Shown here: one piece after another, positions 6,709-36,785 of the stretch
Position numbering within the stretch: position 1 is the first letter of the stretch
How the letters are laid out: each line of letters starts with the position of its first letter
Source: Methanosarcina sp. KYL-1
GTDB taxonomy: Archaea; Halobacteriota; Methanosarcinia; Methanosarcinales; Methanosarcinaceae
Reading direction: 5' to 3'
Assembly: GCF_024372725.1 (NCBI RefSeq)
Contig: NZ_VOUA01000035.1
Location: forward strand, 1 to 36,785
DNA: 36,785 bases
Translations under genes and position numbers: made by a program
The notes under the pieces: generated by a model
What the model was told of the DNA's origin: nothing
Databases searched by the model: none
What the model saw: the letters and a program-made list of their open reading frames with translations, nothing else

Positions 6709-6822
6709 AATCCGGTATTTTTCTATTCATATAATCCGGTATTTTTCTATTCATATAATCCGGTATTTTTCTATTCATATAATCCGGTATTTTTCTATTC
6801 ATATAATCCGGTATTTTTCTAT
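6709..6822. repeat. 24-bp tandem repeat, about 4.75 copies
   Basis: The unit begins AATCCGGTATTTTTCTATTC and is 24 bp long. Copies start at 6709, 6733, 6757, 6781 and 6805 and are essentially identical, so the array is recent or kept homogeneous. Confidence 0.97.
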
Positions 6823-9733: not shown

Positions 9734-9760
9734 CCCCGTTCAACATGTCTGCAGATAAAT

Positions 9761-9880
9761 ATTCCAGATAATATTCCAGATAATATTCCAGATAATATTC
9801 CAGATAATATTCCAGATAATATTCCAGATAATATTCCAGATAATATTCCAGATAATATTCCAGATAATATTCCAGATAAT
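9761..9880. repeat. 12-bp tandem repeat, 10 copies
   Basis: Ten consecutive copies of ATTCCAGATAAT run between pssA and mptD, ending about 55 nt before the mptD start. Copies are virtually perfect. The 12-bp period keeps every frame open, which explains the long spurious EYYL-type reading frame on the minus strand. Confidence 0.98.
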
Positions 9881-9935
9881 ATTCAGATAAAAATTTCAGA
9901 TAAAAACAAGATACAAAAACGCAGGAGATCTCCAC

Positions 9936-14619: not shown

Positions 14620-15126
14620 GTAAACTCCTTTCCTGAAATTTGTAATCATAAACGGTTGATTTTGAAGTTTTAGCGGGTTATTATGTTTGAAGTTTAACGG
14701 GTTATTATGGTTTGAAGTTTAACGGGTTATTATGGTTTGAAGTTTAACGGGTTATTATGGTTTGAAGTTTTAATGGGTTATTATGTTTGAAGTTTAACGG
14801 GTTATATGGTTTGGAAGTTTTAGTGGGTTATTGCATTTACGTTTATTTTGAATTTTTAGGGGGTGCTGAAAACCAGATAATTCCCTGATTCCCTAATAAT
14901 GTTACTGCTCCTTCTAAAAAAAAGAAATTCCTTTTATACAGTTCATCCTTTCCGGGAATTCGTCCTTTTTTGCCTTTTTCTCCCTTTCTTATGGAGCCTG
15001 TTTTTCCCATAAGGATGAAGCGGCATTTAAGGATATGGGTGAAGTGGATGGAAGAGAAAAGGATGGAAGAGAGCGGACATAAACGGGACTTAAGCGGGAA
15101 TATTCCGTTTTCGGACCTTTCCCTGT
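14620..15126. other. Intergenic region with argD promoter and leader array
   Basis: On the minus strand TGTATAAAAG at 14931-14940 is a good TATA box, predicting transcription from about 14908 and a leader near 290 nt for argD. Most of that leader is the 25-bp array. Between 14940 and 15126 I see only purine-rich sequence and no supported gene. Confidence 0.5.
14661..14833. repeat. About 25-bp tandem repeat, 7 copies, in the argD leader
   Basis: Units of 24-27 bp built on TTTGAAGTTTAACGGGTTAT repeat seven times with small insertions and substitutions, more diverged toward the promoter-distal and promoter-proximal ends. Confidence 0.94.
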
Positions 15127-20955: not shown

Positions 20956-21400
20956 TTTTGTACCTTTTATGATTTTTTTTCTTTTAGATCAAGCCTTTTA
21001 GATCAAGCCTTTTAGATCAAGCCTTTTAGATCAAGCCTTTTAGATCAAGCCTTTTAGATCAAGCCTTTTAGATCAAGCCTTTTAGATCAAGCCTTTTAGA
21101 TCAAGCCAGAAAGATTCTGATGGCTGTCACTGCCTCAATAGCTCCGAATTAATGCTATAAATTAAAATTACGTGGGGATGATATATAGAGATAGTTCCTT
21201 CTTAAAAGATTAAAAGAGGGCTCTGTATAAATCCTTAATTCAATCCGGATTATTTCTACAGTCTTTTTGTTTACGTCAACCTTTTTGTTTACGTTATACA
21301 CTATCAGTTCAAGGATTTCTGCCTGAACATCAATTGCAAAGGTTGAAATTCAGGGTTAGCCATATTCCTTACAGATAAAATACATAAGAGATGAAATGTT
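20956..21400. other. Divergent spacer between the orphan DUF1894 gene and DUF1890
   Basis: It holds the 14-bp array, minus-strand TATA candidates near 21160 and 21188-21197, and a doubled CTTTTTGTTTACGT word (21263-21276 and 21281-21294). The second copy is followed by a TATA-like GTTATACA that could serve the DUF1890 operon. Confidence 0.5.
20982..21107. repeat. 14-bp tandem repeat, exactly 9 copies
   Basis: Nine identical copies of TTTTAGATCAAGCC occupy 126 bp in the presumed leader of the orphan DUF1894 gene. Read on the minus strand each unit contains AAAAGG, a weak ribosome-site-like word. Confidence 0.98.
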
Positions 21401-24808: not shown

Positions 24809-24873
24809 GATCGGATCACGTTTTGATATTAAGTAGGAATATTCTGACGCCTTTTTTGGTTGATTGGATCTAT

Positions 24874-24994
24874 AAATTTATTCGATTTATTAAATTTATT
24901 CGATTTATTAAATTTATTCGATTTATTAAATTTATTCGATTTATTAAATTTATTCGATTTATTAAATTTATTCGATTTATTAAATTTATTCGAT
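24874..24994. repeat. 18-bp tandem repeat, 6.7 copies, in the lysC leader
   Basis: The unit AAATTTATTCGATTTATT is repeated without change from 24874. It contains only A, T and one CG, so every unit offers TATA-like sequence on both strands. Confidence 0.97.
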
Positions 24995-25311
24995 TGATTA
25001 TCTTGATATGTTTCTGTCCTGCTTCCAGGACTGATTGCTTCCCCTGCTTGCAGGTCCCTCTCTTCCTGAAAAGAGTCCTCTTTGTAAAGGAAGTTATATG
25101 CTGGCTCTTTTTGCGGCTTAATATACTTTACGCTTTGGGCCTGTCCTGTATAGGATATGGGTACTATATTATAATGTTTGTGTAAAATGTTAGTAGGCAT
25201 TAAAATGTTTGGATAGGCGGAAGAATTCAGTTTTTCCGGGCATCCGGGTGAGGCTCATCAGGCATCTGGCAGGCATCTGGCAGGGCCTGCACGGGCAGCC
25301 CGGCAGAAAGT

Positions 25312-34250: not shown

Positions 34251-34340
34251 TCTAAAAATCAAAGATCTAAAAATCAAAGATCTAAAAATCAAAGATCTAA
34301 AAATCAAAGATCTAAAAATCAAAGATCTAAAAATCAAAGA
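34251..34340. repeat. 15-bp tandem repeat, 6 copies
   Basis: Six perfect copies of TCTAAAAATCAAAGA. Confidence 0.98.
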
Positions 34341-34358
34341 ATCCCTCTAAAAAATATT

Positions 34359-34400
34359 GACTGTCCGGTCCCTCCGTCGGGCAGTCAACTTCTTCCTTAA
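34359..34400. terminator. Bidirectional terminator hairpin
   Basis: GACTGTCCGG (34359-34368) pairs with the complement at 34377-34386 (GTCGGGCAGTC, one G-T pair). On the minus strand it is followed by AATATTTTTTAG and would end the permease operon. On the plus strand T-rich sequence follows and would end transcripts from the 33950 region. Confidence 0.6.
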
Positions 34401-34422: not shown

Positions 34423-34674
34423 TCAGTACTTGTAGTGCTTTACCGAGTGGTGGAGGATCACTACAAAGAAAGCAATTATTACCAGTACGAAACTGAAGAA
34501 GCCTACGGGGTCCCAGACAAAGCCTATTCCTGATCCGCCTTCGTCCCAGGAAACGAGCACTGCTCCCTGGAGCACCGTGGGAACCACGACACAGGCAAAG
34601 GCCAGGACGAAGATGAATATGATGTCAAGGGCCTCCGCAAGGGTACTTTTTTCTTTCTTGGAAATTTCTGCCAC
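34423..34674 (-). CDS. Small two-helix membrane protein of the methylamine permease operon
   Basis: An 83-aa protein with two membrane segments: IIFIFVLAFACVVVPTVLQG and FFSFVLVIIAFFVVILHH, linked by an acidic/glycine loop (WDEGGSGIGFVWDP). The N terminus is charged and cytoplasm-like (AEISKKEKSTLAEA). GTG at 34674 is the start, with GAGGAGG 8 nt upstream. It is 12 nt after the preceding small gene, which itself overlaps the permease gene. I do not recognise a family. The context suggests an accessory subunit of the permease, as small membrane subunits exist for some Na+ symporters. Confidence 0.78.
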   Translation of the reverse strand: MAEISKKEKSTLAEALDIIFIFVLAFACVVVPTVLQGAVLVSWDEGGSGIGFVWDPVGFFSFVLVIIAFFVVILHHSVKHYKY

Positions 34675-34686
34675 TTTTCAGCCTCC

Positions 34687-34965
34687 TCAATCGTAGTAGG
34701 TGAATTCGAACATGTGCTTCTTTATGGAGTCGCGTACCCGCAGGCAGCCGATCGTTTCGACTACAACTATCAGCCCGAAGAAGATCACGTAGAGATAGTA
34801 GAAATTCGAAGCGATCTCCCACGTAGCTCCGACGATCTTGCCGATCACGAAGAGTTCCACGCCTATGAGCAGGGCAAGCATGCCCACAACCAGGACAGAG
34901 TCCCCGTTCAGTTTACTGTGGTATTTTTTTTCCATCTCCGGGTTAATCGTCACTGAACTCAACAC
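34687..34965 (-). CDS. Small two-helix membrane protein overlapping the permease gene
   Basis: A 92-aa protein with membrane segments DSVLVVGMLALLIGVELFVIG and FYYLYVIFFGLIVVVETIG and a charged C terminus (RVRDSIKKHMFEFTYYD). I start at GTG 34965, because the complete ribosome site AGGAGGTGAT lies 6 nt upstream, inside the permease coding region; a later ATG at 34935 has no usable spacing. It overlaps the permease end by 23 nt, implying translational coupling. Family unknown. Its partner at 34423-34674 has the same two-helix design but no obvious sequence similarity. Confidence 0.78.
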   Translation of the reverse strand: MLSSVTINPEMEKKYHSKLNGDSVLVVGMLALLIGVELFVIGKIVGATWEIASNFYYLYVIFFGLIVVVETIGCLRVRDSIKKHMFEFTYYD

Positions 34966-36355
34966 CCATCACCTCCTTTCCTATTCTTGCATTTTCCGAA
35001 CCTTTGGGTTCGGGCCATCCCATCTCAGCCCAGTTGTTTTCTGCCTTTGAAGTCTTATGCTTGTGGCTGAAGTAGAAGTACGCAATGCCGTAGAACACGA
35101 ACCCGAAGATCAGGTTGTACTTGTAACCCCAGAAGAGGGTCGAAAGGATCGTTATGGCAATTGCGATCGCAAAGTAGGCTATGAAGGGCTGAAGCGGCCC
35201 TGCAAAGGGACGGACTTTGCTGGTGGTTTCCGGGAAGAGGTTCCTGAAGCGGATCAGGGCGAAGGGAATCAGGACGTAGCAGAGCAGTCCCGAGACAATG
35301 GAGAAGGTAATTACCTGGTCCAGGAATCCGCTGAAGGCAAATCCTATTGCAACAGGCATTGTGAAGATCACAGCCCTGTAAGGGGTGTTGTACCTCGGGT
35401 GCACCGCCGAGAACCAGGATGATACATAGTGGTCCCTGGAAAGCGCAAACCAGGAGCGTGACGAGTCACAGACACAGCCGTTTGCACTTGCAACGCAGGT
35501 CAGGAACGTCCCCAGGCCCAGGGCAGCAATGAAGATGAACACACCGCTGTTCTGGGCCGCTTCAAAGAGCGGGTACACGGAAACCCCAAGCATGTCCGCA
35601 GGGATCAGTACTGCACAGAGGTAGAGGGTCATTGCCGCTCCTATCAGGAGGGTAATCATTCCGGCCTGCTGCCCCAGGGGCACCGCCCTTGACGGGTGCT
35701 TGCACTCCTCGGCACACATCGCCGCTCCTTCAATCCCCAGGTAGAACCAGGGCCCGAATTGCAGTGCCGCAAAGAGGCCTATCATGCCGTTTGGCAGAGC
35801 TCCCTGGAAAAGGTATTCGGGGTGGATGTCTACTGTTCCGAAGGCCGTTGCGAAGAAGAAGACCACTATTGCGATGAAGGCTATCATGGTCAGGACGAAG
35901 TTCAGGGTCAGGGCTGCAACGACACCCCGGTAGTTAATGAAGGTTAGAAGTGCAATAACAAGTAGTGTTATGGGAAAGACCTGTAGTTCCGGGAAGATGC
36001 TTTGTGCAATGAATGCGACTACAATGGCATCCGCCGCCTCGAGGGCGATGTATTCCATGTAGACCGCAAGCCCGACACTGGCAGCCGCTCCGGGCCCGAT
36101 AAAGAGCCTGGCCCAGTCATAAGGTCCTCCTGCAAGTTTTGTTGACGATCCGAGTTCACTGGCGCAGAGGGAAATTATGACATACATTGTTCCTGCAACC
36201 AGCATGGCAAGCAGGGACCCCAGAACTCCTCCTTTTGCAACGGTGAAGTTCCAGCCCATGTATTCCCCGACCAGCACGATCCCGACTCCAAGGGCCCATA
36301 CGTGGAAAGGCCGCAGAGTCTTCACTAAGCTGGCAGATTCATGGTTTTCAGACAT
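34943..36355 (-). CDS. mtmP: APC-family permease, probable methylamine permease
   Basis: A 470-aa amino acid/polyamine/organocation-type transporter with about 12 membrane helices. The first helix region is FHVWALGVGIVLVGEYMGWN with the unwound glycine motif, and GPYDWARLFIGPGAAASVGL follows. It lies directly downstream of the probable mtmB on the same strand. In Methanosarcina a permease named MtmP occupies this place after mtmCB, so uptake of monomethylamine is the likely role; substrate is inferred from context only. Start ATG 36355 has GAGGGATG upstream. Three small membrane proteins flank it. Confidence 0.85.
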   Translation of the reverse strand: MSENHESASLVKTLRPFHVWALGVGIVLVGEYMGWNFTVAKGGVLGSLLAMLVAGTMYVIISLCASELGSSTKLAGGPYDWARLFIGPGAAASVGLAVYMEYIALEAADAIVVAFIAQSIFPELQVFPITLLVIALLTFINYRGVVAALTLNFVLTMIAFIAIVVFFFATAFGTVDIHPEYLFQGALPNGMIGLFAALQFGPWFYLGIEGAAMCAEECKHPSRAVPLGQQAGMITLLIGAAMTLYLCAVLIPADMLGVSVYPLFEAAQNSGVFIFIAALGLGTFLTCVASANGCVCDSSRSWFALSRDHYVSSWFSAVHPRYNTPYRAVIFTMPVAIGFAFSGFLDQVITFSIVSGLLCYVLIPFALIRFRNLFPETTSKVRPFAGPLQPFIAYFAIAIAITILSTLFWGYKYNLIFGFVFYGIAYFYFSHKHKTSKAENNWAEMGWPEPKGSENARIGKEVMGVEFSDD

Positions 36356-36374
36356 GTTTAATCACATCCCTCAT

Positions 36375-36476
36375 TCAGTTTCTTTTCGAAATTTTACTGG
36401 CGTCCAGCAAAACCCAGCCCATCAATGCAAAAGCCAGGAGATATATCAGCCCATTTATAACAGTCCATATATCCAT
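36375..36476 (-). CDS. 33-aa single-pass membrane peptide upstream of mtmP
   Basis: A short frame between mtmB and mtmP. The product starts MDIWTVINGLIYLLAFALMG and ends WVLLDASKISKRN: one membrane helix followed by a basic tail, placing the C terminus in the cytoplasm. A GGGGG ribosome-like site is 9 nt before the ATG. It ends 19 nt before the mtmP start. Small size limits certainty, but the ribosome site, helix design and position support a real gene, probably an accessory peptide of the permease. Confidence 0.6.
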   Translation of the reverse strand: MDIWTVINGLIYLLAFALMGWVLLDASKISKRN

Positions 36477-36594: not shown

Positions 36595-36627
36595 AAAAAA
36601 AATTAGCCAGCGAGAAACTCGCTGGCT
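36595..36627 (-). terminator. Terminator hairpin after mtmB
   Basis: AGCCAGCGAG (36605-36614) and CTCGCTGGCT (36618-36627) form a perfect 10-bp stem with a 3-nt loop, 29 nt after the mtmB stop. On the minus strand it is followed by AATTTTTTTTG, a full intrinsic-type terminator. Confidence 0.75.
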
Positions 36628-36656: not shown

Positions 36657-36785
36657 TTAGAATACAAGCCCGAGGTCTTCGAGCTTCTTCCTTGCTCCGT
36701 CGTAGACCTGCATGTATTCGTCAGTTGGGGTGACGGTCTTGACGTCGTAGCATTCCTGGAAGGTCTTTCCTGCAGGTGCGTTTGC
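36657..36785 (-). CDS. mtmB: Monomethylamine methyltransferase MtmB, C-terminal end (partial)
   Basis: Only the last 42 residues are in the window (starting ANAPAGKTFQECYDVKTVTP and ending KKLEDLGLVF); the gene continues past 36785. The sequence matches my recollection of the MtmB C terminus, and the APC permease downstream agrees with the known mtmC-mtmB-mtmP order. MtmB moves the methyl group of monomethylamine to the corrinoid protein MtmC, feeding methanogenesis. Its in-frame amber (pyrrolysine) codon would lie outside this window. Another methylamine methyltransferase cannot be fully excluded from so short a piece. Confidence 0.72.
   Translation of the reverse strand, partial: ANAPAGKTFQECYDVKTVTPTDEYMQVYDGARKKLEDLGLVF

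Follow-up and report, generated by a model that had tools for sequence, protein, structure and literature searches.

Prokaryotic permeases of the APC superfamily are taken to work alone. A locus of Methanosarcina sp. KYL-1 raises the question of whether this applies to every member, as a permease gene located beside mtmB, the gene for monomethylamine:corrinoid methyltransferase, is closely flanked by three genes for very small membrane proteins. Here we ask whether these small genes are genuine, how faithfully they accompany the permease in archaea and bacteria, and whether the four products may constitute a single transporter.

Gene organisation of the locus

The window analysed in this study is the entire contig NZ_VOUA01000035.1 (36,785 nt). 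The features around the permease gene are given below, where s33, s92 and s83 are the names we gave to the three small proteins.

36660..36785, minus strand: C-terminal end of mtmB, matching PF05369 and truncated by the contig end
36605..36627, minus strand: 10-bp hairpin between mtmB and the s33 gene, terminator-like or a processing hairpin (z -4.4)
36375..36476, minus strand: gene of the 33-aa one-helix peptide s33, based on the motif M-D-x-W-T-x-I-N-G, dN/dS and bacterial counterparts
34943..36355, minus strand: APC-family permease of 470 aa, MtmP-type, based on PF00324, a TIGR00908 score under the cut-off and the APC fold
34687..34962, minus strand: gene of the 91-aa two-helix protein s92, with a TTG start, overlapping the permease gene
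34687-34965, minus strand: 92-aa version of s92, if GTG 34965 is the start
34423..34674, minus strand: gene of the 83-aa two-helix protein s83, based on dN/dS, a GAGGAGG box and bacterial homologues
34357..34388, minus strand: hairpin below the last gene, a probable terminator of moderate strength, based on sequence and fold (z -1.7)

The partial mtmB at the window end comprises the last 42 codons, reading ...KTFQECYDVKTVTPTDEYMQVYDGARKKLEDLGLVF, and matches PF05369 at 412-450 (E 4.4e-15). The s33 gene is separated from the permease gene by 19 nt, the permease and s92 genes overlap by 20-23 nt, and 12 nt lie between the s92 and s83 genes. Shine-Dalgarno boxes precede all four starts (AGGGGG for s33, GAGGG for the permease, GGAGGTGA for s92 and GAGGAGG for s83), so the tight packing and ribosome sites described in the first-pass annotation hold. 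The four frames also lie on the minus strand where that annotation had placed them, but the length of 92 aa assigned to s92 probably needs correction: the protein most likely starts at TTG 34962 (91 aa) rather than at GTG 34965 (92 aa), because nearly all Methanosarcina relatives keep this TTG together with a GGAGG box at constant spacing.

A clear terminator had been claimed for the operon end. A hairpin is indeed present at 34357..34388, with a stem of 8 bp plus 3 bp followed by UAUUUUUU / TATTTTTT, but its z value of -1.7 makes it moderate only. Far stronger is the hairpin at 36605-36627 (minus strand; z -4.4), whose arms, AGCCAGCGAG-UUU-CUCGCUGGCU, are followed by a U8 tail, AAUUUUUUUU. 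It is conserved in the genus, with a counterpart in all relatives checked except two. Since this strong and conserved hairpin lies between mtmB and the s33 gene, the four transporter genes are probably separated, at least partly, from the mtmB transcript. The hairpin may represent the end or a processing site of the mtmB message and thereby set the ratio of enzyme to transporter.

Apart from these features, short tandem arrays with units of 12-25 bp, some of them perfect over 90-130 bp, occur in or near intergenic gaps along the whole window.

Tandem arrays: 34251-34340, 24873-25000, 20981-21107, 9752-9903, 6709-6822, 14661-14832

Family and fold of the permease

The permease scored 137.9 bits against PF00324 (gathering cut-off 24.6; E 5.3e-40), which places it in the APC superfamily, and both its sequence and its model match the fold of BasC, LAT1 and GkApcT (E 1e-12 to 1e-14). 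The closest NCBIfam model is that of the ethanolamine permease family (TIGR00908, 2.A.3.5 type), and some bacterial relatives adjoin EutE or Eut-type enzymes. Nevertheless, the permease reached 223.4 bits against a curated cut-off of 381.75, and on this ground we rejected the view that it is simply an ethanolamine permease; its bacterial clade members, at 196-210 bits, also stay under 381.75. The small genes described below set the clade further apart, as the APC permeases outside it lack them.

Three small genes under purifying selection

Across 21 Methanosarcina-level loci, the median dN/dS values were 0.10 for s33, 0.10 for s92 and 0.07 for s83, compared with 0.05 for the permease. In contrast, the same small-gene DNA read in the +1 frame gave values of 1.1-2.5. 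The three frames are real genes under purifying selection. Scans of their products against Pfam and NCBIfam yielded only sub-threshold noise, with nothing above the cut-off of any model, and neither the archaeal nor the bacterial small proteins matched the MetS-type family PF16951, DUF485 or DUF4212 up to E 1. Profile searches against the PDB returned nothing for s83 and chance matches only for s92 and s33. The three proteins represent small protein families without an earlier description.

Judged from its charges, s33 should cross the membrane once with its positive end inside, and the sequences of s92 and s83 suggest that each should cross twice with both ends inside. Two aspartates stand at the membrane border: Asp17 of s83 is invariant in the archaeal and bacterial sets, and Asp21 of the 91-aa s92 is invariant in the archaeal set. 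In addition, s92 ends in a short, conserved cytoplasmic tail, YYD.

Conservation within the Methanosarcinaceae

The gene order s33-permease-s92-s83 was found at every Methanosarcinaceae locus that carries this permease and has its flanks available, in Methanosarcina, Methanolobus, Methanococcoides, Methanohalophilus, Methanohalobium and Methanimicrococcus. Even the most divergent locus of the family (L105; 57% identity) is no exception, although its s33 was missed by the profile and is visible by eye as METIAYVNFGILILGLIIIAYLLFDAAKVMKGAE. The genome of the window has a further copy (C48), which encodes a permease 81% identical to the first, accompanied by the same three small genes. Among 60 related genomes, most of those from Methanosarcina carry an mtmB with an in-frame TAG about 0.3 kb upstream of the permease gene.

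Loss of the permease is accompanied by loss of its neighbours. In the Methanosarcinaceae genomes G001, G005, G022, G024 and G036, both the permease and s83 are absent. A decayed second copy of Methanococcoides type (L199, 632-982, minus strand) has no permease left and only stop-ridden remnants of s92 and s83; here permease and small genes decay together. As G001, G022, G024 and G036 retain mtmB without the module, the latter is dispensable for methylamine use in general, and these archaea must take up methylamine by another route.

At several Methanosarcina-type loci (L061/L102, L062, L106; L063, L064), the small genes are intact beside a permease frame that has a frameshift, is shortened or contains stops; the frameshift of L062 lies elsewhere than that of L061 and L106. 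The M. mazei permease is likewise split (MM_1435/MM_1434). Sequencing error, decay or recoding may account for these broken frames.

Relatives in bacteria and another archaeon

Outside the Methanosarcinaceae, the nearest permeases are 44-48% identical and come from Bacillota, Pseudomonadota, Planctomycetota, Synergistota, Actinomycetota and Thermodesulfobacteriota, as well as from one archaeon, JdFR-19. Relatives of s92, s83 and s33 were all found beside the permease in 36/36 of these loci, by reading the neighbourhoods and by a search with profiles built from the bacterial and JdFR-19 surroundings themselves (the L107 row of the bacterial s92 profile was taken in a wrong frame, which leaves the counts unaffected). 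The bacterial genes run s92-s83-s33-permease, and those of JdFR-19 follow the archaeal arrangement. Comparison of archaeal with bacterial profiles by hhalign gave E values of 7.6e-17 for s83, 1.1e-10 for s33 and 7.9e-6 for s92. The relation between archaeal and bacterial s92 appears to be the weakest link by sequence, resting partly on position and on a shared D...Y pattern. The s92 and s83 genes are fused into one in Thermincola ferriacetica (L112) and at L108, L204-L206 and L222.

Many bacterial loci carry two further genes immediately 3' of the permease gene, which the archaeal module does not have. The product of one, about 220 aa long, has a single helix at its N-terminus (12/36 loci); that of the other has two helices in about 90 aa and a VPGSGY/LPGAG motif (26/36 loci).

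Examples of the further bacterial genes: L112, 10364-11023 and 11007-11288; L234, 9460-10158 and 10168-10431

Linkage in both directions

The association was found whichever partner was taken as the starting point. In 25 whole genomes, the s83 profile matched only beside clade permeases, except for one match on a contig fragment of G348, and the more distant APC paralogs of the same genomes (<235 bits) had no s83 nearby. Across 348 sampled Bacillota genomes, s92 and s83 accompanied every clade permease with its upstream side available, and so did s33 except at L209, where it was not detectable between s83 and the permease. No small genes were found at 13 other intact Bacillota APC permeases (116-262 bits with the clade profile) or at the three APC paralogs of the window genome. 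Among 72,556 plasmids, 22 records carry the permease and 22 carry s83, from the same genera in the same counts, and the small genes on them are annotated as 'hypothetical protein'.

In a tree of 57 permeases, all 38 triad-bearing sequences fell on one side of a branch with a support of 100/100; triad membership was established gene by gene for most of the 38, and L208, which starts at a contig edge, was assigned by score. None of 500 shuffles (0/500) reproduced this separation by a single branch. The triad-bearing permeases share a single-clade origin.

The two-way linkage of partner genes and permease expected of a heteromeric transporter was found across distant genomes. The first-pass annotation would have fallen if the small frames were not conserved next to homologous permeases; they are present beside every clade permease with available flanks in two domains, the sole exception being s33 at L209. 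They are specific to this clade as well, being absent at the 16 other intact APC permeases tested and lost together with the permease.

Neighbouring enzymes and the probable substrate

In the Methanosarcinaceae and Thermincola, mtmB lies immediately upstream of the module. The neighbours in Thermincola (L112) are mtmC, mtmB and pylC, and MtmB is also encoded near the module of JdFR-19 and near an actinomycete locus. In Paracoccus aminophilus and Sinorhizobium meliloti, the module is accompanied by glnT and genes for an FMN-type glutamate synthase, a GXGXG protein and an amidotransferase, a set that we interpret as the N-methylglutamate pathway for the use of methylamine. Other loci adjoin the sarcosine oxidase genes soxAB (Paraburkholderia, L132), a sarcosine-reductase-like GrdF (Formimonas, L131), EutE (L126) or, in Dethiosulfatibacter, genes for MttB-like proteins. 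The neighbours at L122, L114 and L138 may be EutB/EutC, if read from their sequences only. What recurs among the neighbours as a common theme is enzymes for small amines, namely monomethylamine, sarcosine and ethanolamine. Some loci depart from it, such as those of Synergistota with genes for a TRAP transporter and aconitase-X.

Because the neighbouring enzymes share this theme, we infer that monomethylamine is the substrate of the copy in the window. We found no measurement of monomethylamine uptake by MtmP in the literature. The earlier reading as a methylamine transporter is supported by mtmB upstream of the Methanosarcinaceae and Thermincola modules and by the N-methylglutamate genes beside the Paracoccus and Sinorhizobium versions.

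Comparison with known systems

Papers on Methanosarcina name MtmP but give it no small partners (PMC8196204, PMC7465815). The M. mazei genes mtmC1 and mtmB1, the split mtmP (MM_1435, MM_1434) and MM_1433 rise together (PMC7465815). MM_1433 has been annotated automatically as 'efflux RND transporter permease subunit'; judged by its position, it probably encodes one of the two-helix proteins. The permease of the window resembles MtmP in being an APC permease encoded directly downstream of mtmB; the difference is that none of the papers found counts the three small genes among the components of MtmP. No earlier description of the four-gene module was found in the open-access literature.

The first-pass annotation suggested looking for the same gene order beside the permeases of the other methylamine operons. 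It occurs with mtm but not with mtt: neither the permease nor s33, s92 or s83 had a significant match in six mtt regions, and the trimethylamine permease MttP (348 aa) is unrelated to APC permeases. The s33-permease-s92-s83 module does not serve di- and trimethylamine. MttP comes with a conserved one-helix partner of its own, a 49-aa protein unrelated to s33 (L228, 2664-2855; L229, 8059-8208; L231, 7922-8071; L232, 7810-7959), which is probably sORF_05 of M. mazei. The latter, encoded beside the trimethylamine permease MM_1691, is translated (Ribo-seq) and membrane-localised (Western blot), and was proposed as a permease subunit (PMC11456600). Like the small proteins of the window, it is a small membrane protein of a methylamine operon, but we rejected the idea that s33 is sORF_05, as the latter belongs to the unrelated MttP. 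With MttP and the 49-aa peptide, methylamine uptake offers another, independent example of a permease with a tiny partner.

GkApcT (PDB 5oqt, 6f34), the closest bacterial relative with a solved structure by sequence, was found with the one-helix protein MgtS of Escherichia coli packed on its TM5, and loss of MgtS left its melting temperature unchanged (PMC5803215). This precedent shows, by analogy, that the APC fold can take a one-helix partner; MgtS, however, came from the expression host and is not encoded beside GkApcT. The mammalian heteromeric amino acid transporters (LAT1-4F2hc and other SLC7-SLC3 pairs) likewise combine an APC permease with a dedicated partner that has a membrane helix. 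In those pairs the partner, a type II glycoprotein, is large and has an outer domain, whereas the proteins described here consist of 33, 91 and 83 aa with almost no soluble part. In MetP-MetS of the NSS family and in the SSS symporters with DUF485 or DUF4212 partners, too, the gene of a secondary transporter adjoins that of a dedicated small membrane subunit. These transporters differ from the present system in having one small subunit instead of three, and in belonging to other transporter families.

A proposed four-part transporter and its alternatives

Three observations favour subunits of a single complex over casual neighbours: the linkage is strict, it survives changes of gene order, and s92 and s83 can be fused. 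We consider it likely that the products of the four genes form a single heteromeric APC-superfamily transporter, in which three small subunits are dedicated to the permease, and that this transporter imports monomethylamine in Methanosarcina sp. KYL-1. The genome evidence thereby supports the proposal of a multi-subunit transporter with dedicated small proteins, and extends it from a methanogen operon to a clade that spans two domains. That the four proteins associate physically, what each small one does, and which substrate is transported in which direction are what we infer from these data. In such a transporter, the 12-helix permease would carry the substrate, and the single-helix peptide and the two 2-helix proteins would attach to this permease within the membrane as obligate subunits, required for assembly, stability or gating. 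Monomethylamine, in the form of methylammonium, would be delivered to MtmB for methanogenesis, and the bacterial relatives would serve methylamine, sarcosine or ethanolamine.

Docking was modelled by AlphaFold2 on natural read-through chains, obtained by translating across the stop codons at loci whose genes are in one frame: permease-s92-s83 of L059 and s33-permease-s92 of L186. The pTM values were 0.73 and 0.75, and the permease core was predicted well. The pLDDT was about 35-65 for s92 and s83, too low to place these two with confidence, and about 90 for s33, a level which a lone helix can also reach; the models thus speak neither for nor against the complex.

A bolder version, which we regard as possible though somewhat unlikely, is that the clade forms an architectural class of APC transporter common to bacteria and archaea, in which the three obligate small subunits build part of the transport path or of the coupling site. 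If this is the case, Asp17 of s83 and Asp21 of the 91-aa s92 could help to admit or energise small cationic amines. Quite unlikely, in our view, is that the small proteins are transient regulators or quality-control factors, acting for instance in ammonium shut-off or in protection from proteolysis like MgtS, MgtR or the pair sP36-AmtB1. Such regulation of transporters by small membrane proteins is well known (PMC10710835), and sP36 of M. mazei acts on AmtB1 (PMC11456600), but three proteins beside one permease clade in two domains, with the permease never alone, go beyond what regulators usually show. The fusion of s92 with s83 moreover suggests a fixed stoichiometry.

It is less probable still that the small proteins are only co-regulated with the permease and form a separate membrane complex, such as a docking platform for methyltransferase and corrinoid proteins at the permease exit. 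The conserved short cytoplasmic tails, e.g., the YYD at the C-terminus of s92, could offer a binding site for a soluble partner of this kind. The same small proteins, however, also occur beside enzymes sharing nothing with MtmB (sarcosine oxidase, sarcosine reductase and ethanolamine enzymes), and their sole constant partner is the permease. There is hardly any chance that the small frames are fortuitous open frames, or that their linkage was merely inherited by descent within the Methanosarcinaceae. The frames are short, and 77 frames of at least 25 aa can be listed in the window, but such a reading is refuted by dN/dS values of about 0.1, by the 36/36 loci, where the frames are conserved in bacteria with another gene order, and by the two-way linkage. 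We thus favour the four proteins as subunits of one amine transporter.

Significance

The module concerns the entry step of methylamine-driven methanogenesis, as well as the use of methylamine, sarcosine and ethanolamine by bacteria. The clade is spread over at least six bacterial phyla and methanogenic archaea, always in the company of small partners, and these are annotated as hypothetical proteins or missed. If the four-part transporter is genuine, descriptions of a basic nutrient importer have so far left out three quarters of its parts, and this would account for any failure of these permeases when tested alone.
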